From positions 1,488,001 to 1,552,000 of the forward strand of contig NZ_CP155071.1 in the NCBI RefSeq assembly GCF_039621855.1: a stretch of 64,000 nt of DNA, given 5' to 3'. The notes below the pieces were generated by a model. The model saw nothing but the letters and a program-made list of their open reading frames with translations. It did no database searches and was not told the DNA's origin. The DNA is from Erwinia sp. HDF1-3R (lineage in GTDB: Bacteria; Pseudomonadota; Gammaproteobacteria; Enterobacterales; Enterobacteriaceae). Made by a program: the position numbers and the translations under genes. Positions 21,367 to 60,911 of this stretch are shown here, piece by piece; the first letter of the stretch is position 1, and each line of letters starts with the position of its first letter.

Positions 21367-21621
21367 TTAGCGACGGCCGAAAATCTTCGCCGCCAGGAAG
21401 CCAACGCCAGCGGCAATCGCCAGCGAAACAAATGGGGCATCCTGCGTTTTGGTTTTCACACAGTCCAGCGCATCATCAACAGCGTAAGATGCTTTGGCCG
21501 CGCCCTGACGCACTTTACCTTTTAACTCATGCTCGGGAGAATCAGTCGCTTTACCGAGCTGCTCCTGGCCTTTACCCAGTGCTTCGTCAGCTTTGTCACT
21601 CGCTTTATCTAACAGACTCAT
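21367..21621 (-). CDS. Small YqjD/ElaB-like (DUF883-type) membrane-anchored stress protein
   Basis: An 84-residue protein with a charged helical N-terminal region (repeated Lys/Ala/Glu, MSLLDKASDKADEALGKG) and a C-terminal hydrophobic helix followed by the basic tail AAKIFGRR. This is the layout of the DUF883 family (YqjD, ElaB, YgaM), C-tail-anchored inner-membrane proteins that bind ribosomes in stationary phase. The N-terminal half also recalls CsbD-like stress proteins. Own terminator, so monocistronic. A good AAGGAGATATT site precedes the ATG. Confidence 0.7.
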   Translation of the reverse strand: MSLLDKASDKADEALGKGQEQLGKATDSPEHELKGKVRQGAAKASYAVDDALDCVKTKTQDAPFVSLAIAAGVGFLAAKIFGRR

Positions 21622-21797
21622 AATATCTCCTTCTTAGTGGCATGATTTCCTCATAGGGAACATTAAGAGTAGACCATCCCGTACGAGTTGCCGCTGCGGT
21701 TGTGTGAAAAAATATGACGAAGGTAAAGAATTTGGCAGTTGGGGTGTTTTTTTAGCCTCGGAATGTCTACCTCGTGAATTGATGGGTGTTTGGTACT

Positions 21798-24436
21798 GCA
21801 CAGGCCTGGAGTGGTCGCCAACGGGTGGGGCCCGGTGCCTGGCGGTCCTCACGCCGCGCGTGGCGCGGTGCCTTCGCTCCGCTCGTCGACCTTTCGGACC
21901 GGGCATGACGTGACATCCCTGTCCCGGCATGCCCTTGTGCCAGCATCCCTGCTGGCCCATCCGGGTCTTCCTCTCTGCGCTCAGCGCTGCGGAATGCCTG
22001 TCACCGGGCCCCACCCGTCTGCTTATTGCATTGTGCTGGCTGCGGGTAAGAGCGGTTCCGGGGGTTTCAGGAAACTCTGTGGCCGGGTTTATTGAAGAAA
22101 GAACTCTACAAATAAGAAAACTGCTCTGCTAAAGACTCAGTGCCGTCGTCAGCTGATCGTATCTGGTATGCGGGAGACCTGGCGAATGTCGCCTGCGTAT
22201 TGAGCCCATTGCTGTAAGGGCAGGGGTGGTCGCCTACCGTTGGGGCCCGGTGCTGCACAGGCCTGGGGTGTCGCCAACGAGTGGGGCCCGGTGTCTGGCG
22301 GTCCTCACGCCGCGCTTCGCACGGTGCCTTCGCTCCGCTCGTCGACCTTTCGGACCGGGCATGACGTGACATCCCTGTCCCGACATGCCCTTGTGCCAGC
22401 CTCCCTGCTGGCCCATCCGGGTCTTCCTCTCTACGCTCAGCGCTGCGGAATGCCTGTCACCGGGCCCCACCCGTCTGCTTCTTTGCATTGTGCTGGCTGC
22501 GGGTAAGGGCGGTTGCGGGGGTTACATAAACTCTTTTGGCAGGTTTGGAAGAGTAAGAACTCTGCAAATATGAAAACCGCTGTGCTAAAGATTCAGTGCC
22601 GTCGCCAGCTGGTCGTATCCGGTCTGCGGGGGATCTGGCGAATATCGCCTGTGTATTGAGCCCATTGCTGTAAGGGCAGGGGTGGTCGCCTACCGTTGGG
22701 GCCCGGTGCTGCACAGGCCTGGGGTGTCGCCAACGAGTGGGGCCCGGAGCCAGGCGGTCCTCACGCCGCGCGAGGCGCGGTGCCTTCGCTCCGCTCGTCG
22801 ACCTTTCGGAGCGGGCATGACGTGACATCCCTGTCCCGACATGCCCTTGTGCCAGCATCCCAGCTGGCCCATCCGGGTCTTCCTCCCTGCGCTCAGCGCT
22901 GCGGATTGCCTGTCACCGGGCCCCACCCGTCTGCTCTTTTTGCATTGTGCTGGCTGCGGGGTAAGAGCGGTTCCGGGGGTTTCAGGAAACTCTGTGGCCG
23001 GGTTTTATTGAAGAAAGAACTCTACAAATAAGAAAACTGCTCTGCTAAAGACTCAGTGCCGTCGTCAGCTGATCGTATCTGGTATGCGGGAGACCTGGCG
23101 AATGTCGCCTGCGTATTGAGCCCATTGCTGCACAGGCCTGGGGTGGTCGCCTACCGTTGGGGCCCGGTGCTGCACAGGCCTGGGGTGGTCGCCAACGGTT
23201 GGGGCCCGGTGCCTGGTGGTCCTCACGCCGCGCGTGGCGCGGTGCCTTCGCTCCGCTCGTCGACCTTTCGGACCGGGCATGACGTGACATCCCTGTCCCG
23301 GCATGCCCTTGTGCCAGCATCCCTGCTGGCCCATCCGGGTCTTCCTCTCTACGCTCAGCGCTGCGGAATGCCTGTCACCGGGCCCCACCCGCCGGCTTAT
23401 TGCATTGTGCTGGCTGCGGGGTAAGAGCGGTTCCGGGGGTTACATAAACTCTTTTGGCAGGTTTGAAAATGGAAAGAAGTCTGCAAAAAACAAGAAAACT
23501 CCTCTGCTAAAGACTCAGTGCCGTCGTCAGCTGATCGTATCTGGTATGCGGGAGACCTGGCGAATGTCGCCTGCGTATTGAGCCCATTGCTGTAAGGGCA
23601 GGGCGTGGTCGCCTACGGGTGGGGCCCGGTGCTGCACAGGCCTGGGGTGTCGCCAACGAGTGGGGCCCGGTGCCTGGCGGTCCTCACGCCGCGCTTCGCA
23701 CGGTGCCTTCGCTCCGCTCGTCGACCTTTCGGACCGGGCATGACGTGACATCCCTGTCCCGACATGCCCTTGTGCCAGCATCCCTGCTGGCCCATCCGGG
23801 TCTTCCTCTCTGCACTCAGCGCTGCGGAATGCCTGTCACCGGGCCCACCCGTCTGTTTATTGCATTGTGCTGGCTGCGGGTAAGAGCGGTTCCGGGGGTT
23901 TCAGGAAACTCTGTGGCCGGGTTTTATTGAAGAAAGAACTCTACAAATAAGAAAACTGCTCTGCTAAAGACTCAGTGCCGTCGTCAGCTGATCGTATCTG
24001 GTATGCGGGAGACCTGGCGAATGTCGCCTGCGTATTGAGCCCATTGCTGTAAGGGCAGGGGTGGTCGCCTACCGTTGGGGCCCGGTGCTGCACAGGCCTG
24101 GGGTGTCGCCAACGAGTGGGGCCCGGTGCCTGGCGGTCCTCACGCCGCGCTTCGCACGGTGCCTTCGCTCCGCTCGTCGACCTTTCGGACCGGGCATGAC
24201 GTGACATCCCTGTCCCGACATGCCCTTGTGCCAGCATCCCTGCTGGCCCATCCGGGTCTTCCTCTCTGCACTCAGCGCTGCGGAATGCCTGTCACCGGGC
24301 CCACCCGTCTGTTTATTGCATTGTGCTGGTGCGGGTAAGGGCGGTTCCGGGGGGGTACATAAACTCTTTCGGCAGGTTTGGAAGAAGGAAGAACTCTGCA
24401 ATTAAGAAAACCTTTGTGCTAAGACTCAGAGCCATC
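21798..24436 (-). repeat. Six-unit tandem array of a ~457-bp structured element (A-B-A-B-A-B)
   Basis: Units begin (at GCACAGG) at 21798, 22255, 22711, 23172, 23634 and 24090, giving periods of 457, 456, 461, 462 and 456 bp; the sixth is cut short near 24436. Each contains a ~198-bp core bounded by inverted repeats: 21821-22018, 22277-22474, 22733-22930, 23195-23392, 23656-23852, 24112-24308. In core 1 the 17-bp ends ACGGGTGGGGCCCGGTG and CACCGGGCCCCACCCGT are perfect; other copies carry 1-3 changes. The part after the core exists in two forms that alternate: units 1, 3, 5 have TTTCAGGAAACTCTGTGGCC, units 2, 4, 6 have TACATAAACTCTTT. Read on the minus strand the core forms hairpins with GGA in the loop. 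Reading frames on both strands here are repeat-derived and not believed to be genes. Confidence 0.95.
21821..22018 (-). ncRNA. Core element of unit 1: candidate structured RNA with GGA-loop hairpins
   Basis: On the minus strand this 198-bp core folds, by eye, into a 17-bp closing stem enclosing several hairpins. These are CCC-GGAT-GGG (21956-21965), CCAGCA-GGGA-TGCTGG (21940-21955), a GGGCATG/CATGCCC stem (21901-21907 with 21928-21934) enclosing GACA-GGGA-TGTC, and CCGCGC-CAC-GCGCGG (21854-21868). The decamer ACAGGGATGT (21913-21922) equals the core of the CsrA/RsmA SELEX consensus RUACARGGAUGU. All six cores keep the decamer. No promoter was identified, so transcription is inference. Confidence 0.45.
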
Positions 24437-24550
24437 GGCTGGGCAGGCGCTGTCAAATGCACATTACCGAATTACCTGCTAATGGGCCGGGCGGGCTACA
24501 AAGCCTGAGTGTTATTAGGGCTTAACTTAAAGTCGTGCTGATGATGCCTG

Positions 24551-24631
24551 CGGATAGACAACCGGTTTTACTGAAAGCAGCTCAGCAGCCCGCGGACAGA
24601 CAAACGGTTTTACTCAAAGCGGCTCAGAAGC
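24551..24631. repeat. Imperfect 42-bp tandem duplication
   Basis: Two copies (24551-24589 and 24593-24631) of a sequence beginning CGGATAGACAACCGGTTTTA / CGGACAGACAAACGGTTTTA, differing at about five positions. They lie next to the solitary core element and are noncoding. Confidence 0.7.
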
Positions 24632-24637
24632 CTGAGA

Positions 24638-24842
24638 GGTGGATAATCCCAGCGGGTGACGGGTAATCCGCAGCGCTGCGGCGCAGACGGAGGGCCAGGC
24701 GAGGGCAGCAGGGATGCTGCACTCAGGGAGCGGCGGGCAGGGATGCCCGCTCGCGACCGGGCCGTCCGGCCCGGAGTCGGAGCCAAAGGCACCAGGCAAA
24801 GCCTGGCGCGAGGACGCCCGGCAAACGCTGGGATTATCCACC
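24638..24842 (+). repeat. Solitary diverged member of the array's core family, opposite orientation
   Basis: A 205-bp element with perfect 17-bp terminal inverted repeats GGTGGATAATCCCAGCG (24638-24654) and CGCTGGGATTATCCACC (24826-24842). Read on the plus strand it aligns with the array cores read on the minus strand: GGTGAC-GG-A-TCCGCAGCGCTG near the 5' end, then GCAGCA-GGGA-TGCTGC (24705-24720), GCGGGCA-GGGA-TGCCCGC (24733-24750), CCGGGCC-GTCC-GGCCCGG (24758-24775) and CCAGGC-AAA-GCCTGG (24792-24806). The stems differ in sequence from the array but remain paired, which points to selection on structure. Confidence 0.75.
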
Positions 24843-25002
24843 GGCAAAGGAACTGTCCACCGGCAAAGCCGACATTGCAGCCGACACAACCAACCGGCAT
24901 ACATCGGAACTGTCCACCAGCACCGAAGATATCGCAGCCTGCGCAACAAACCTGCGCTGTGGGCCACCCGCCACCCGCAGGGATTATCCACCAACCCACA
25001 AC
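24843..25002. other. Noncoding stretch with repeated TCCACC motifs
   Basis: Contains GGAACTGTCCACC twice and a second copy of GGGATTATCCACC (about 24980), the same sequence as the right end of the solitary element. This suggests the remains of further element ends. No gene is seen. Confidence 0.5.
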
Positions 25003-25039
25003 GAAAAAAGCCCGGCAGACACTTATGTCTACCGGGCTT
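25003..25039 (-). terminator. Terminator of the cydAB-DUF2474 operon
   Basis: On the minus strand a long hairpin (arms GCCCGGTAGACA and TGTCTGCCGGGC) is followed by six T. It lies about 90 bp after the stop of the small subunit gene. Confidence 0.85.
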
Positions 25040-25129
25040 CGATGTAAGTTTATTAGCGCCAGAAACTGTCCAGCGGGCGGCATATCGACAGCCTTTTAAT
25101 GACAGGGCAGCCCTCCGGACAACGTGCGA

Positions 25130-27734: not shown

Positions 27735-28939
27735 TGCTTACCTCGATCTAACATAGACTGCCTTTTCTTATTAATTAACTCGCACCTGACAACAAGGCCA
27801 CATTTGATGTGATGGGGCGATCGTCAGGCGAGTATTTCATCGAAGGATTGATCCAGAGACCAAATCATTAGAAGGAGTGACAACAGTAATAGCGATTACG
27901 GCAATAATAACGGGGTTCTTTGCGATGAATTGTTTCACCGCTGCGTTAAATCGGTTGTCCATACTGTTAAAATGGGATCTGGGAATGATGCTGTTATGTA
28001 AAAATAATGTATCCGCATAGCCCTAAAGGTTTTTTTCGCGCCGTGGGCGTCTCCTTCCGTCATACCGATCCCCATTATCCGATGTAAGAATTATTTATAT
28101 CGCGGCGGGCGGCTATAACTATTTGGTTGTTTTAGCTGTCGATTAAGGCACAAATTGGAAATTATTACGCTTAATGGTGTCATGGGCAGGTGTGTTGTTG
28201 TTTAATTGTTGCATTAAGGGTCGCAAGCGTTTAATAAAAATTAGATTTAATGTTATCAATGATTTCGTCACCCTGGTGGATAACCCAGCCGCAGTAAGCG
28301 CATGTAAATGTTAAACCATAATGACATATATTGATTCTGATAGAATTAATTAGTTACATTTACGCTCGTAATTTATCGCAATTTTATGTCGAAGGTCAAA
28401 GTTATTGCCACTTTACTGTGAGTGCGTCGTCAATTGCCTGTATCCCAGCGGGAACGAGATGACCTGATGCAAATGAGTGACAGCAATGGTCGAGCCGACT
28501 GGCGTTATTCTTTGGCGCATCCGACTTAGGGATAATTTTTTTAGCGGCTAAAATCCGAATTTTAGCGGCAGGGTAATCCTGCGGCGTCGCCCCGATGAAG
28601 GAGATTTAACGCTTAAATTTAAACGAATTAATACGCTCGGCCAGGGCAAAAAACAGCGAACTACAGGCAGGGAGAAGTGGATCGTCAGGCAGGAAAACCG
28701 CAGGCGCTATTGCACTGAATAACACTTCATAAGTATACTATCACCTTGAAAAGCTTTGATTTTTTTGACTAAAGTCAAATTCACTGCCGTTTGAAATCAT
28801 TGTCTTATATTGAATACTTGCCACATTTAGGCGTACGCCATCCAACACCCAGTTACTTATTTATCGCTGTATTACCTTAGCGGTATAACCCTTTGTCGCT
28901 TGAATCTTGTTTGGGCCGTTGCCTTTGGGGATACGCAGT
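27735..28939. other. 1.2-kb AT-rich intergenic region at the left edge of the T3SS
   Basis: This stretch separates cydA (minus) from the first T3SS-side gene (plus). It is noticeably richer in A and T than its flanks. I looked for an hrp box (GGAAC-N15/16-CCAC) and found none. Apart from one 41-codon minus-strand ORF (27837-27962) no plausible gene is visible. It may be an island boundary or hold the cyd regulatory sites. Confidence 0.5.
27837..27962 (-). CDS. Possible 41-residue small membrane protein
   Basis: Starts MDNRFNAAVKQFIAKN and contains a hydrophobic stretch PVIIAVIAITVV, then a polar tail. It lies in the cydA upstream region. The ribosome site is poor, which lowers confidence. 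It could be a chance ORF. Confidence 0.25.
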   Translation of the reverse strand: MDNRFNAAVKQFIAKNPVIIAVIAITVVTPSNDLVSGSILR

Positions 28940-30107: not shown

Positions 30108-30749
30108 TTACTGCACAAGATGATGGCTTATCGCGTACTTCACAATATCGGCGTTGCTGCTGAACTGCATTTTGTCCATCATGCGTGACTTATAGGTACT
30201 GACCGTTTTATTGCTGATTGAAAGCGTCTGGGCGATGGCGTTGATCGTCTCACCGTGTGCCAGCAGCATCAGAATTTGCCGTTCGCGGGTGGTCAGCGTC
30301 TCGTGTAGCGCCCGGTTACCGTTCTGGTATTCAGCAAAAACGATCTCCTGTGCGAGGTCGTGATCGATATAACGCGATCCTCCCGCCACGCTGCGGATCG
30401 CGGTCAGCAGCGCATCGGGATTTTTATCCTTAGTGATATAGCCCAGTGCGCCACAGTTCAAAACCCGGCGGGCGATCTGCGGCTCATTAAACATACTGAG
30501 CACCAGGATCGGCAGGTTTTCGTATTGCAGGTGAATGCGTTTGATCAGTTCCTCACCGCTGATGCCGGGCATAGAAATATCCAGCAGCAGCAGATCCAGC
30601 CCGCCGAGGCGCAGCCGCTCAAGTACCTGACCGCCATCTCCCGCTTCACCCACTACGGAAAGACGCTTATCCAGAGCAAAAATTTGCTTTAATCCTTCAC
30701 GCATCAGCGCGTGGTCATCGGCAATGACCAGTCGTATCACGTCATTCAT
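30108..30749 (-). CDS. hrpY: NarL-family response regulator HrpY
   Basis: A 213-residue two-domain regulator: receiver with acidic pair ADDH (D11-D12) and phosphoacceptor Asp57 (LLLLDISMPG), and a LuxR-type helix-turn-helix (LTTRERQILMLLAHGETINAI) at the C-terminus. In Erwinia, Pantoea and Dickeya HrpY, phosphorylated by HrpX, activates hrpS and so the T3SS cascade. It is 49 bp downstream of hrpX on the same strand. Here hrpS is more than 20 kb away, unlike the compact enterobacterial arrangement. Confidence 0.93.
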   Translation of the reverse strand: MNDVIRLVIADDHALMREGLKQIFALDKRLSVVGEAGDGGQVLERLRLGGLDLLLLDISMPGISGEELIKRIHLQYENLPILVLSMFNEPQIARRVLNCGALGYITKDKNPDALLTAIRSVAGGSRYIDHDLAQEIVFAEYQNGNRALHETLTTRERQILMLLAHGETINAIAQTLSISNKTVSTYKSRMMDKMQFSSNADIVKYAISHHLVQ

Positions 30750-33301: not shown

Positions 33302-34462
33302 ATGATCAAAATCCAGTCCACTTTTCATTCTCAGCAGGCACTGTCTAAAATGCTGCTGAAACAGGATACCCCGTCCGCGGCTACGAGTGCCGTGGCTGGG
33401 GCGAATACGCAGACGCGAGCGGTGAATACCCGGTCGGCAGCGGATTCCCTGTCAGACTCGCTGGAAGAGATTGGTATGTTGTTCAGCGAGAAGATGGAGA
33501 AAAGGAGCAAAGGACTGGCGCGCCGTCAGATTAATACGGCGCACCTGCGCAGTAATCGCGGTGCCGTAGAGCGTATTGAGCGGCTGGGTGAGCTTTATCA
33601 AATGCTCGATGGCCAGCAGCAGGATCGGCTGGAGACGCGCCTGAGCGCGCTGAGCAGCGTGTTACGCGGCGAAGGGGAGCCGGAAGCGAGTGCGCTGGTC
33701 GAGGCAGCGGAAGGGGATCCGGCCCGCTGTGACCTGCTGCTGCGGATGACCCTGCGCGAGGCCGATCGGGCCGGTGACCATCAGACCGCCGCCGCCGCCA
33801 GCAGCAGTCTGGATAAGCTGCATGCCCGCTACGGCGATGAGGTCAGAGCCGGTCTGAATACCGCGTCCGCCATCGCCAGCTTTACTACCGACCCCACCGA
33901 AAAGCAGTCGATGCGTAACCTCTATTATCGCGGCATTGTGAAACACCAGTCGGCTTCGGTGATCCTCGACAGCCTGCTGGAACGTTTTGGCCACGAGCAG
34001 TTTATGCCGGGGCTCCGTACGCTTCAGCGGGCGCTGTCCGAGGATATCGCCTCGCTGACGCCCTCACTTTCCTCCCAGTCGCTGCACAAAATCCACACGG
34101 GCCTCAGCGAGGCCGGACAGATAAGCCATGTCCTCGCGGGCAGCGGTAAGCTCCTCGAACGGCTGCGCGCGGGGGGGAAAATCCCTTCCGCGTCGCTGGG
34201 CGCCATTGATTTGACCCGCAGCCTGCTCGGCTTTGCTCATAACGGAGTGACGGGGCGGGATATCCAAAAAATAGGTAAGGACTATGCAGGTACGCATCCG
34301 GCGGCCCAGATGCTGTTCTTCAACGGCCTGCTGCCACTGGTGCACGAGATGCCCGTCATGCTGTGGCAGGACCGTAAACAACGCTCGCCCGCGATGAATA
34401 TGCTGCGCGATACGATCAGGGTTCTGGTGAACAACGAAAATAATGCAGCGGCGAAAGGCTAG
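33302..34462 (+). CDS. hrpJ: T3SS gatekeeper HrpJ (SctW, YopN/TyeA-like)
   Basis: A 386-residue soluble protein of the HrpJ/YopN-TyeA/SepL family that controls the switch in export of translocator and effector substrates. The N-terminus is Ser/Thr-rich and flexible, fitting a secreted protein, followed by helical repeats. First gene of the long plus-strand operon, 31 bp from its hrp box; the ribosome site is weak. Confidence 0.9.
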   Translation: MIKIQSTFHSQQALSKMLLKQDTPSAATSAVAGANTQTRAVNTRSAADSLSDSLEEIGMLFSEKMEKRSKGLARRQINTAHLRSNRGAVERIERLGELYQMLDGQQQDRLETRLSALSSVLRGEGEPEASALVEAAEGDPARCDLLLRMTLREADRAGDHQTAAAASSSLDKLHARYGDEVRAGLNTASAIASFTTDPTEKQSMRNLYYRGIVKHQSASVILDSLLERFGHEQFMPGLRTLQRALSEDIASLTPSLSSQSLHKIHTGLSEAGQISHVLAGSGKLLERLRAGGKIPSASLGAIDLTRSLLGFAHNGVTGRDIQKIGKDYAGTHPAAQMLFFNGLLPLVHEMPVMLWQDRKQRSPAMNMLRDTIRVLVNNENNAAAKG

Positions 34463-54216: not shown

Positions 54217-54682
54217 GCTTCTCTCGAATTTCAGGACTTATCCTATTTACTTGAGGTGATATTATCAAAGATTACCAGGATATCCATAAGATATGTTAAT
54301 TGATTCTTGCTGAGCATTGTTTTTTAATGAAATTAATTTTCCGGAAACTTAAGATGTAGGTTACTGAAAATGCTTTAATAGAGTCTGAAAGGCGTAAAAT
54401 AATTTTAAATTGATTGAGATCAAATTTTAGTTAAGACGCAGGAAATAAAGACAATATCGGTGTGCTGTGCTTATCATTTTTCTGACTCGCCCTGGGGGTG
54501 GCACGATGGGGAGTTTCAGGCGTGTACCTGGATCTGAAACCGCGGCGTGAATAATAATGTGTCAGCAAAAAAGGCGATATTTATCACTTTTTCGCGTTTC
54601 GCTACTGGACAAAAGGCTCGGCAATTGCTGTACTAACCGTCGACACAGTTTTGTGTCCATTTTTCATGTAAAGGTAATATAG
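54217..54682. other. Long upstream and leader region of cspE
   Basis: About 465 bp, AT-rich on the left. The last ~130 bases before cspE probably form a long structured leader, as is common for csp genes; an imperfect AAAAAGGCGATA / TATCACTTTTT hairpin lies at about 54569-54594. No gene is seen. Confidence 0.45.
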
Positions 54683-54892
54683 ATGTCTAAGATCAAAGGT
54701 AGCGTTAAGTGGTTTAATGAGTCCAAAGGATTCGGTTTCATTACTCCTGAAGATGGTAGCAAAGACGTGTTCGTTCACTTCTCTGCCATCCAGAGCAATG
54801 GTTTCAAAACTCTCGCTGAAGGTCAGCGCGTAGAGTTCGAAATCACCAACGGTGCCAAAGGCCCATCTGCTGCTAACGTTGCCGCTATTTAA
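54683..54892 (+). CDS. cspE: Cold-shock-type RNA chaperone CspE/CspC-like
   Basis: A 69-residue single cold-shock domain with RNP1 [11 protein letters not shown] and RNP2 DVFVHFSAI. It binds single-stranded RNA/DNA and melts structure. The location near the tatE-lipA-lipB block is like that of cspE in E. coli, which supports cspE over cspC. AAAGG precedes the ATG. Confidence 0.93.
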
Positions 54893-54912
54893 GTTATCAG
54901 ACAGAATTTTTA

Positions 54913-54940
54913 AAACCCGCCGATCGGCGGGTTTTTTTTT
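54913..54940 (+). terminator. Terminator of cspE
   Basis: AACCCGCCGATCGGCGGGTT hairpin followed by eight or more T. Confidence 0.95.
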
Positions 54941-55200: not shown

Positions 55201-55635
55201 ATGATAATTCGACTCGCCGCAGAAAAAGACAGTTTTGCCCTTAGCGCCCTGTTAACCGAATTAGGTTATGAAGGTACCCATCGCTTTATTGAGCGGCGGC
55301 TGGCGCAGTTAATTAACGATGATACCGAACGCCTTCTGGTGGCTGAACAGGATAACAGCGTGCTGGGCTTTCTTTCGCTGCATTTTATTCCTCAGCTGGC
55401 ACTGGAGGGTGATTTTGCCCGGGTCAGTTACTTTTGCATCGCCGATGGCGAACGCAGTAAAGGCGCTGGTCAGCAGCTGCTGCAACATGCTGAAAACCTG
55501 GCTCAGGCGCGCGGCTGCGACCGGATGGAAGTGCACTGCCATGAACACCGTATTAAAGCCAATGCGTTTTATGCCCGCGAAGGCTACACCGAATCACCCT
55601 GCTATCTGGTTAAACCTCTGCTGATAGCGGGCTGA
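55201..55635 (+). CDS. GNAT-family N-acetyltransferase
   Basis: A 144-residue protein with the GNAT core: IRLAAEKD at the N-terminus, VSYFCIADGERSKGAGQQLL as the acetyl-CoA-binding region (R/Q-x-x-G-x-G/A type), and NAFYAREGY. The substrate (small molecule or protein) is unknown. Its C-terminal 12 codons lie in the first copy of a 36-bp duplication whose second copy encodes the end of the convergent MocR-type gene. Confidence 0.85.
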   Translation: MIIRLAAEKDSFALSALLTELGYEGTHRFIERRLAQLINDDTERLLVAEQDNSVLGFLSLHFIPQLALEGDFARVSYFCIADGERSKGAGQQLLQHAENLAQARGCDRMEVHCHEHRIKANAFYAREGYTESPCYLVKPLLIAG

Positions 55636-55680
55636 GATCCGTAGGGTTAAACCTCTGCTGATAAGGGGCTGAGATCCGTA
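55608..55680. repeat. 37-bp-period duplication spanning two convergent gene ends
   Basis: Copies at 55608-55643 and 55645-55680 (GGTTAAACCTCTGCTGATA onwards) differ at two positions. Copy 1 encodes the C-terminus of the GNAT protein on the plus strand; copy 2 encodes the C-terminus of the MocR-type protein on the minus strand. Confidence 0.9.
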
Positions 55681-58944: not shown

Positions 58945-59826
58945 ATGAAAAAAATTGCGCTGGCACTGGCTCTGGGCTTATCCGTTAGCCTGGCACAGGC
59001 CGCAGAGGCCATTCCTGTACAAAAGGTCGACCAGGCACTGCATGACCGTCTGCCGCCTGATATCCAAAAGGCGGGCAGGATGATTTCGGTGAATAATGGC
59101 TCCTTTCCGCCCTATGAAATTGTAGAAGGGCCCTCTTCGATGAGCGGTGCATCAGCCGACCTCACCGAGGCGCTGGCACAGCTGCTGGGTATCAAAATCG
59201 AGCACGCTACCGTCAGCGGGCTGTCGGGCGTGCTGGCCGGCATCAAATCTGGCCGCTATCAGCTGGCGATTGGCCCCATTGGGGATTATCCGGAGCGCCA
59301 GCAGAAAAATGATTTCATCGACTTTGTGCAGGAGTTCGTGGTGTTTGCCGTACAGAAGGGCAATCCGTTGCAGATTAACGATCTGGAGAGTACCTGCGGT
59401 AAGCGAATTGCGGTAATGGCGGGAGGCTCGGCGGAACAGGTCATTCGCAGGCAGTCTGACGTCTGTACCGGGGCGGGTAAACCAGCGGTGGTTATCCAGT
59501 CATTCGCCGATCAGCCCTCGTCGATTCTGGCGGTGCGCTCTAAGCGTTCGGATGCCTTTTTCTCTTCGCAGGCACCGCTGGTGTGGTTTGTTGACCAGGC
59601 GAACGGACAGCTTGAGCTGACCGGGCAGGGTAAGAAAAATGGCTTCGGCGATATTTTCCAGGGCACCGTGGTGCCGAAAGACGCCGCGCTTGGCAAAGTG
59701 GTGCTTGCGGGGTATCAGAAGCTTTTCGCTAACGGCACCTATGCCGCCATTATGAAGAAGTGGAAGCTTGAGGGGAACGCACTGACTGCCCCGGGGATTA
59801 ACCTGGCGAAAGGGGCAGCAAAATGA
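58945..59826 (+). CDS. Polar amino-acid-type ABC substrate-binding protein
   Basis: A 293-residue exported family-3 solute-binding protein: signal peptide about 1-19 (AQA-AE), then NNGSFPPYEIVEG and GPIGDYPERQ. It should bind an amino acid or opine-like compound in the periplasm. Two cysteines (in STCGKR and DVCTG) may pair. Its stop overlaps the permease start (ATGA). Confidence 0.87.
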   Translation: MKKIALALALGLSVSLAQAAEAIPVQKVDQALHDRLPPDIQKAGRMISVNNGSFPPYEIVEGPSSMSGASADLTEALAQLLGIKIEHATVSGLSGVLAGIKSGRYQLAIGPIGDYPERQQKNDFIDFVQEFVVFAVQKGNPLQINDLESTCGKRIAVMAGGSAEQVIRRQSDVCTGAGKPAVVIQSFADQPSSILAVRSKRSDAFFSSQAPLVWFVDQANGQLELTGQGKKNGFGDIFQGTVVPKDAALGKVVLAGYQKLFANGTYAAIMKKWKLEGNALTAPGINLAKGAAK

Positions 59827-60911
59827 CCCCAGGCGGCAGCGATCCGCGCGCTGAGGCAGGGCAGAATGCTGTGACCCCAGGCGGCAGCGATCCGCGCGCT
59901 GAGGCAGGGCCGAACGCTGTGACCCCAGGCGGCAGCGATCCGCGCGCTGGGGGCAGTGCGAGCGCTGGCGAATGGGCTGACGTGCAGCTGCGCGATGTGG
60001 CCTGTGCCCGCAGCGCCCCGCGCTACGGACGGCTGGTCAGCTGGGTCCTGGTACTGGCGATCGCCGCCAGCGTCCTGTGGCTGGTGGCTACTAACCCCAA
60101 TTTTGAATGGGGCGTGGTGGGCAAATGGTTTACCGAAGGCTCGGTGCTCAAGGGCTTGCAGGTCACGCTGGGGCTGACGGTCGTCTCCATGATCCTGGGC
60201 ACCCTACTGGGGCTGCTGCTGGCGGTGGCGCGGCTGGCGGATAACCGCCTGCTGAGCGGACTGGCCGGATTGTATATCTGGTTTTTTCGCGGGACGCCGC
60301 TGCTGGTACAGCTAATTTTCTGGTACAACATGTCGACGCTCTTCCCGACGGTTACCCTGGGTATTCCCTTTGGTGGGCCAGTACTGGCCAGCTGGAATAC
60401 CAACGATCTGATCACTCCCCTGACGGCGGCTATTGCAGGCCTGGCGCTGAATGAAGCGGCCTATATGGCAGAAATTATTCGCGCAGGTCTGCAATCAGTC
60501 GACAGCGGGCAGGTGGAAACCACCCAGGCTTTTGGCATGAGCCGCGCGCGTGCGCTGCGCCGTATCATTATTCCCCAGGCCATGCGGTCAATTATTCCCC
60601 CTACCGGCAATCAGCTGATCGGTATGATCAAGGCGACCTCGCTGGTGAGCGTGATTGCGATGGGCGATCTGCTCTATTCCGTTCAGTCGATCTATAACCG
60701 CACCTTTGAAGTTATTCCGATGCTGCTGGTGGCCGTTATCTGGTATCTGCTCATCACCTCTGTATTGAACGTCGGACAGTCGGCGATTGAGCGCTACTAC
60801 TCACGCAGCGTCCGACGCACGCTGTCGGCAACCCGTCGGCGATTACCCGCAGCGGACAGCAAAGCCACTCCGATGGTTAACCGTCCTTTTATGCATAAGG
60901 AGGATCTGTGA
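59823..60911 (+). CDS. Amino-acid ABC permease with repeated N-terminal extension
   Basis: A 362-residue HisM/GlnP-type permease. Residues about 1-50 are three tandem 16-residue repeats ([16 protein letters not shown] and variants), then a hydrophobic segment near 66-86 and the transport domain with [17 protein letters not shown], the ATPase-contacting EAA loop. The extension is unusual for the family and is made by a 48-bp tandem DNA repeat. It overlaps the binding-protein gene and the ATPase gene by 4 bases each. Confidence 0.87.
59826..59969 (+). repeat. Three 48-bp tandem repeats inside the permease gene
   Basis: Copies start at 59826, 59874 and 59922 (ACCCCAGGCGGCAGCGATCC). Copies 1 and 2 are nearly identical; copy 3 diverges in its second half. 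Being 48 bp, copy-number change keeps the frame. Confidence 0.95.

Follow-up and report, generated by a model that had tools for sequence, protein, structure and literature searches.

CsrA-type loops in an Erwinia tandem array are a conserved property of a dispersed TwoAYGGAY repeat family

The window (the whole 64,000-nt stretch of Erwinia sp. HDF1-3R DNA that we analysed) contains a tandem array at 21792-24437 with CsrA-type GGA loops on its minus strand. We found that such loops are conserved throughout a family of repeats and do not belong to a single sponge gene. A typical locus of this family is made of two homologous structured modules, A and B, in a fixed divergent orientation, and is often amplified tandemly on one side. 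Our preferred reading, to which we give about an even chance, is that the array belongs to a dispersed and non-autonomous family of BIME-like repeats, which are composed of TwoAYGGAY modules and have a role as a diffuse CsrA sink or dock. The array is probably not a dedicated sponge RNA, as the original prediction had it. That prediction was right in substance in what it observed, with some counts wrong, and its interpretation is partly supported.

The array and its modules

The array holds 5.8 copies of a 456-nt unit and is flanked by a CsbD-like gene (21367-21621, minus strand) and by a minus-strand cyd-type operon, the latter named by eye. The locus as a whole is composed of six A modules and one B module. 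The A modules, all on the minus strand, are at 21821..22018, 22277..22474, 22733..22930, 23195..23391, 23656..23849 and 24112..24305. The first of these includes the segment that was originally flagged (21901-21965) and has a 17-bp outer stem (ACGGGTGGGGCCCGGTG) around two GGGA hairpins; its predicted fold, at -118.3 kcal/mol (z -6.9), was more stable than 200 of 200 shuffles. A centre at 24306..24638 separates A from B, carries a 42-nt tandem repeat at 24546-24632 and has ends that are found again at other loci. The B module (24639..24841, plus strand) has a core homologous to A, an unrelated 17-bp outer stem (GGTGGATAATCCCAGCG) and its GGA loops on the opposite strand, with a predicted fold (24638-24842) of -133.4 (z -9.8). 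The stretch 3' of B (24842..24992, plus strand) repeats the B outer-stem arm (GGGATTATCCACC), and a terminator-like hairpin with a T-run (25007..25040, minus strand) lies between the cyd-type operon and the array. The TTATCCACC/TTGTCCACC repeats, at window 24830-24992 and in the 3' flanks of B modules, are close to the DnaA box, with a different last base.

There are many long ORFs on both strands of 21634-24508 (for example 22457-22858 minus and 23056-23424 plus). These are probably spurious and are likely to get annotated as hypothetical genes. Elsewhere, the window has a cspA thermoregulator RNA at 54512-54940 (137.7 bits), a 48-nt tandem repeat of about 3 copies at 59824-59967 and a 37-nt repeat of 2 copies at 55608-55680.

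The original prediction described a decamer and several GGA hairpins in every core, and most of this can be seen in the array. ACAGGGATGT and GACAGGGATGTC each occur once per core in all six cores, on the minus strand, and are absent from the rest of the window; from base composition, the chance expectation of the decamer in the window is about 0.11. The stated likeness of the core decamer and loops to the CsrA SELEX consensus agrees with the consensus quoted in an excerpt of PMC4347634 (RUACARGGAUGU, with ACA and GGA fully conserved). CCAGCAGGGATGCTGG, described as present in every core, is exact in four of the six, and the other two have a loop-closing mismatch. The letters of the CCCGGATGGG hairpin are in all six cores, but its GGA is paired in the predicted fold of core 1 (probability unpaired 0.11-0.13), so the models give two loop GGAs per core and about 12 in the array, where about 18 GGA hairpins had been counted.

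TwoAYGGAY identity and known relatives

All six cores pass the gathering cut-off of RF01731 (TwoAYGGAY), with 45.9-56.7 bits against 43. Module 1 (at 21896-21962) and module 4 score 56.7 bits, modules 5 and 6 score 55.7, and modules 2 and 3, which have a closing mismatch in hairpin 1, score 51.4 and 45.9. The cores align to positions 46-112 only of the 168 in RF01731, and their 17-bp outer stems are their own and differ from the model's. Their loops read AGGGAU, with G where AYGGAY has Y; across genera AUGGAU, AGGGAU, ACGGAU and AGGA(U/C) are all seen. What the window elements share with the family is the two GGA-loop hairpins, whereas they are dispersed, tandem and divergent. A passage of PMC4333381 (2015) proposes TwoAYGGAY as a CsrA-binding sRNA, a prediction awaiting validation, and a table entry in PMC2864571 rates it probably RNA and probably not cis-regulatory. 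We found no experimental test of the CsrA proposal in the literature excerpts examined, and no description of a dispersed, divergent layout or of cassettes in passages naming TwoAYGGAY or in wider titles and abstract openings.

The covariance-model search that had been suggested as a check finds RF01731 in six of six cores and no match to RF00018 (CsrB/RsmB) in 21500-25100, even at E<=1. The likeness to CsrB/RsmB holds for the several GGA-loop hairpins on one strand and for the Rfam clan, CL00106, to which both RF01731 and CsrB belong. It does not hold for the RF00018 model, and the array also differs in having no detected sigma-70-type promoter, in being one of many loci and in sharing its genome with a separate CsrB.

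The repeat family in its own genome

We found at least 58 RF01731 matches in the genome (two contigs, 4.85 Mb), at least 42 of them above the cut-off; 150 of 183 candidates were scored, so these counts are lower bounds. A search of 32 intervals with A and B modules as queries gave 110 places in 31 of them, of which 99 are modules above 100 bits (44 A, 55 B) and 11 are weaker and partial. Copies spanning at least 90% of a module number 97 (44 A, 53 B). The orientation is consistent: in all 27 intervals with both signs, the minus-strand modules are on the left and the plus-strand modules on the right, so that the GGA strands face outward. Both A and B are present in 26 of these 27, and the remaining one (L133) has B on both sides; the other 4 of the 31 intervals have one sign. 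On the outside, the outer-stem arm is often repeated in tandem, with a period of about 41 nt beside A and about 57 nt beside B, and the centre between modules has ends that recur across loci. The loop GGA is intact in 197 of 198 loops (A 44/44 and 44/44, B 55/55 and 54/55), and it ranks among the most conserved triplets of the modules.

The intervals are also biased toward convergent gene junctions (18 of 31, versus 36 of 239 neighbouring pairs, P 6e-7, with ORF limits of 80 and 100 aa in the two gene sets). One ORF inside an interval, L125, looked like cargo, and we rejected it because it is an ordinary gene, an alpha/beta hydrolase; L125 is therefore two neighbouring loci.

The REP/BIME unit is short, some tens of bases, whereas the modules here measure about 200 nt, fold into a branched structure and have conserved loops, and we did not find a Y1 (RAYT) transposase in the genome. 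What is shared, going by an excerpt of PMC2817692, is intergenic palindromes paired in opposite orientation. By description, the family also resembles Pseudomonas fluorescens repeats (R178 and others), dispersed and with a tail-to-tail bias (excerpt of PMC2718517), and Photorhabdus 105/154-bp palindromes at a variable locus (excerpt of PMC3091717); a possible identity of either with TwoAYGGAY is a lead.

Loops, stems and the DNA-level alternative

The family retains two GGA loops per module while the stems change by compensation. We looked at 20 sequences from g12, a genus of the same order, and found that 94.6% of stem cells are paired versus 72.2% when shuffled, with 129 double (compensatory) changes versus 41.7 shuffled and 4-26 when slid. 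The GGA is invariant in both loops of these sequences, the closing helix TTTAGCA/TGCGTTAA is nearly constant, and a single G-U pair is retained in 19 of the 20. As far as sequence can tell, invariant loops on compensating stems are the pattern of a bound loop, and intact GGAs together with stem covariation make CsrA-type docking plausible if the GGA strand is transcribed. Departures elsewhere, among copies found with a model, are CGTGGATG in L110, L112 and L115, and L111, where the GGA is lost in one hairpin. We rejected a GNRA tetraloop in place of the CsrA loop, as the first loop base takes all four letters and 5-letter loops exist.

Wobble pairs favour the GGA strand. Stem positions 1-5 of 183 double hairpins have 34 GU against 11 AC; the pattern for these hairpins itself required the loop letters A, GGA and T/C, with the first loop base left free, and a double hairpin was kept only when each of its hairpins had two Watson-Crick pairs among the first four of the stem. 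Over whole predicted folds in the genome, which were chosen with GU allowed, there are 160 GU versus 32 AC in A and 135 versus 79 in B. In stem positions 1-4, GU takes 20 of 1320 cells (Watson-Crick, GU or AC; 144 other cells set aside). A structure that works only as RNA is expected to have more GU pairs than this. With so few, there is room for a DNA-level role of the stems or for selection on DNA palindromes.

A rival explanation is purely DNA-based. The modules would be BIME-like DNA palindromes with loops that are read in single-stranded DNA by a transposase or recombinase, and RNA and CsrA would be uninvolved. Almost purely Watson-Crick stems agree with it, as do dispersed, intergenic modules that are oppositely paired and tandemly amplified, and a bias to convergent junctions like that of other repeats (excerpt of PMC2718517). 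It could also draw on two transposase-like genes of g12 just outside the left element, L156:2081-2608 and L162:2756-3775, which are 49% identical over 162 aa. The L162 gene has a Y1_Tnp match below the Pfam cut-off and the L156 gene matches nothing in Pfam. However, PF01797 (Y1 transposase) is unmatched in the Erwinia genome, the L162 gene has no relative in 24 same-genus genomes (the Erwinia genome included), and the loop sequence conserved on otherwise unrelated stems is that of the CsrA consensus. We consider the DNA-only explanation possible and rather unlikely. A fragment of one of the transposase-like genes was also seen at G034:C2:61293-61376, about 110 nt from an element.

Two candidate mobilisers were rejected. 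For a REP-RAYT pairing within the genus, PF01797 is absent in four of the six genomes with at least 27 matches (G000, G003, G006, G011), is weak in G013 and G014, and is stronger in element-free genomes such as G009 and G022. An IS110 lies beside elements in three Alishewanella loci (L207, L218 and L226, with the IS110-like gene Pfam-checked in L226), which we read as no more than a possible target preference.

Transcription and the sponge explanation

The original prediction was that one minus-strand transcript over the six cores forms a sponge like CsrB/RsmB and thereby adjusts the nearby T3SS. The twelve loop GGAs all face the same way, which fits this, and they would be sense for read-through from the cyd-type operon: since both neighbours of the locus are on the minus strand, such read-through would cross B antisense and then six A modules sense. 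An excerpt of PMC5109040 also reports that T3SS gene expression requires CsrA in Erwinia amylovora. Against it, we found no sigma-70-type promoter-like site in the array, where 0.8 were expected, and the terminator separates the operon from the array. The genome has one csrA and a canonical CsrB elsewhere at 202.5 bits (two RF00018 matches, neither in the array), and the unit sits at 31 intervals genome-wide, only one of which has the T3SS as a neighbour. The T3SS is also further away than the 4.5 kb that had been given. The ORF at that distance, starting at 28907, has no Pfam match at E<=1e-3, and recognisable structural genes begin only at 33302, with an HrpJ-domain gene 8.9 kb beyond the array end; a gene for a LuxR-type response regulator (30108-30749) lies in between. 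Taken as an explanation of the array, a dedicated sponge gene seems to us very unlikely.

The evidence leaves room for some GGA-strand RNA at the window locus, past the terminator. In 18 of 18 convergent settings, transcription from either flanking gene would enter the nearer modules on their antisense strand, and any gene that reads into a two-sided locus crosses an antisense module before a sense one. Transcription of the entire family could present about 197 loop GGAs, compared with the 18 CsrA sites credited to E. coli CsrB in an excerpt of PMC4347634, so a diffuse sink is conceivable.

Our preferred reading remains that of a dispersed repeat family with a diffuse CsrA role. The GGA strand would be transcribed through read-through or an unseen promoter and would fold into modules, each of which may hold a single CsrA dimer that bridges its two loops, about 30 nt from each other. 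The family would then act as a diffuse, low-level CsrA sink or a local dock and not as a CsrB-type sRNA gene. Its spread and copy-number change would take place at the DNA level, by recombination or some mobilising enzyme, and insertion would be at gene 3' ends, where it would be harmless. The array itself would be a cargo-less, tandemly amplified, BIME-like member of the family and at most an auxiliary CsrA sink.

Distribution in other genomes

RF01731 is present in 15 of 40 relatives (the Erwinia genome included), in 86 of 295 genomes of the order and in 35 of 398 genomes of a phylum draw. Scoring covered at most 52 candidates per genome among relatives, 9 in the order and 6 in the phylum, so copy numbers are lower bounds. 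Within the genus the counts run from 0 in 14 of 24 genomes up to at least 52 (52 candidates scored). The divergent layout is seen outside the Erwinia genome as well. In other genomes, neighbours within 1.5 kb among the matches listed are 16 divergent and 0 convergent, and in g12, with a model built here, neighbours are 32 divergent, 4 convergent and 49 tandem (137 of 147 model matches used, with ten below 31 bits left out). Three of the four convergent g12 neighbours fall between successive divergent pairs. Exceptions to the divergent layout exist in Alishewanella (L218, L226, L235).

A scan for A/B-like motifs gave 39 stretches, with 22 in Erwinia sp. ErVv1, 9 in Alishewanella and 2 in Alkalimonas, plus Hafnia, Acinetobacter and Pantoea coffeiphila. 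Three further MAG matches are doubtful. We set aside an Acidobacteria match, which sits in a coding tandem repeat, and a Roseburia piece in which the scanner saw no double hairpin. A plasmid or phage origin was also rejected: only 7 Pantoea plasmids match (69-78% identity over 35-41% of the unit), and no phage does. The plasmids with these distant copies of the A unit are NZ_CP117200.1 and six other large ones, and no gene is annotated under the match.

CsrA is present in all 80 carrier genomes tested, out of 117 carriers found, and in the phylum draw it is present in 35 of 35 carriers and in 220 of the 398 genomes overall. This is the co-occurrence that CsrA binding requires, but it is confounded by phylogeny, with 34 of the 35 phylum carriers in one class, that of Erwinia.

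Paired modules and variable sites

In g12, divergent pairs often enclose genes. We hand-picked 40 loci (L256-L295) from the matches listed regardless of spacing, except that L280 was visible as a pair. They include 21 divergent pairs, of which 8 are cargo-less with modules 136-217 nt apart and 13 have cargo of at least 120 aa. Six of the 13 cargo pairs reach at least 75 bits in PADLOC and none of the 13 flanks do (P 0.015). The matches are NsnA in L258, PDC-S31 in L272, HerA and SIR2 in L281, PDC-S31 plus a weak ThsA-like match in L283, Ppl in L289, and a retron I-B RT with an ATPase-Toprim partner in L294; the PDC models stand for candidate, unproven systems. No match of at least 75 bits is present in the other seven (L257, L260, L279, L280, L284, L290, L295), although a SocA/Panacea antitoxin domain is encoded in L257 and an alkaline phosphatase in L260.

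Eight further loci had been chosen beforehand, six of them (L154-L158 and L162) for wide spacing; the figure for the 13 pairs uses L256-L295 only. Six of the eight reach 75 bits (L154 PDC-S49, L155 NsnA, L156 PDC-M11, L157 PDC-S31, L162 PtuA/PDC-M01, L167 PDC-S20), L161 has a weak match only and L158 has none. Of ten proteins compared, three have no match and one is marginal, and none of five further ORFs matched.

By protein, the 75-bit line is reached by 11 of 30 in the cargo and by 0 of 30 in the flanks (P 3e-4); we chose this line after both sets had been seen. The cargo set has 25 proteins from the 13 pairs and 5 from L161, L162 and L167, and one of the neighbours is from L154. At E<=1e-3 the cargo has 14 of 30 and the flanks 10 of 30, so it is match strength that separates the two sets. 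The neighbour matches are mostly shared housekeeping domains, such as UbiG (66.8 bits) or the response regulator encoded next to L279, L283 and L295.

The same site can have different contents. We made nine pairwise comparisons at six sites, recognised by neighbour gene, and in eight of them, once element-like repeats are set aside, no 120-base stretch of one content aligns with the other; in the ninth, a gene is common to L157 and L272 at 70% identity. Flank homology is two-sided in four of the nine (L154/L257, L258/L161, L272/L284, L283/L295); for L283/L295 the orientation is reversed and one of the two homologous flanks lies several kb off. For L279/L283, L162/L294, L157/L284 and L155/L260, the flank aligns on one side and only element sequence does on the other.

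One explanation of these observations leaves CsrA out: divergent TwoAYGGAY pairs would be the ends of exchangeable cassettes, and the array would be a cargo-less, overgrown end pair. The g12 cargo pairs, their PADLOC matches with none in the flanks, and the six sites with contents that differ between species all speak for it. However, no cassette with cargo was found in the Erwinia genome, where the L125 ORF is an ordinary hydrolase, and more than half of the g12 cargo pairs (7/13) have no strong PADLOC match, with cargo hardly above neighbours at E<=1e-3. A mobilising enzyme was not found, flank homology on both sides is seen in only four comparisons, and the sites may be mere tolerant insertion points. 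We think that boundary elements alone are an improbable account.

More tentatively than our preferred reading, we suggest that the two ideas may belong together. TwoAYGGAY would then form the paired ends of a cassette-exchange system of Gammaproteobacteria, each end with an outward two-loop CsrA dock, so that every transcript leaving a cassette would end in a CsrA-binding hairpin pair. Many g12 cassettes would have genes for defence against phages as cargo, among them retron I-B, HerA-SIR2, Septu-type PtuA and NsnA, and the window array would be a cargo-less, amplified form. We offer only as a proposal that pairs of TwoAYGGAY modules flag exchangeable sites in which defence-like genes are abundant.

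Significance

TwoAYGGAY has so far been an orphan RNA family with a single functional proposal, CsrA binding. The present results make it testable, as a high-copy dispersed repeat with GGA strands that face outward in most close pairs, and with pairs in g12 that bound variable sites including anti-phage-like genes. If CsrA binds the modules in cells, the repeat family adds dozens of CsrA docks per genome. Should the pairs prove to be the ends of cassettes, they would give one class of defence-gene hot spots a boundary that can be recognised and used in searches.
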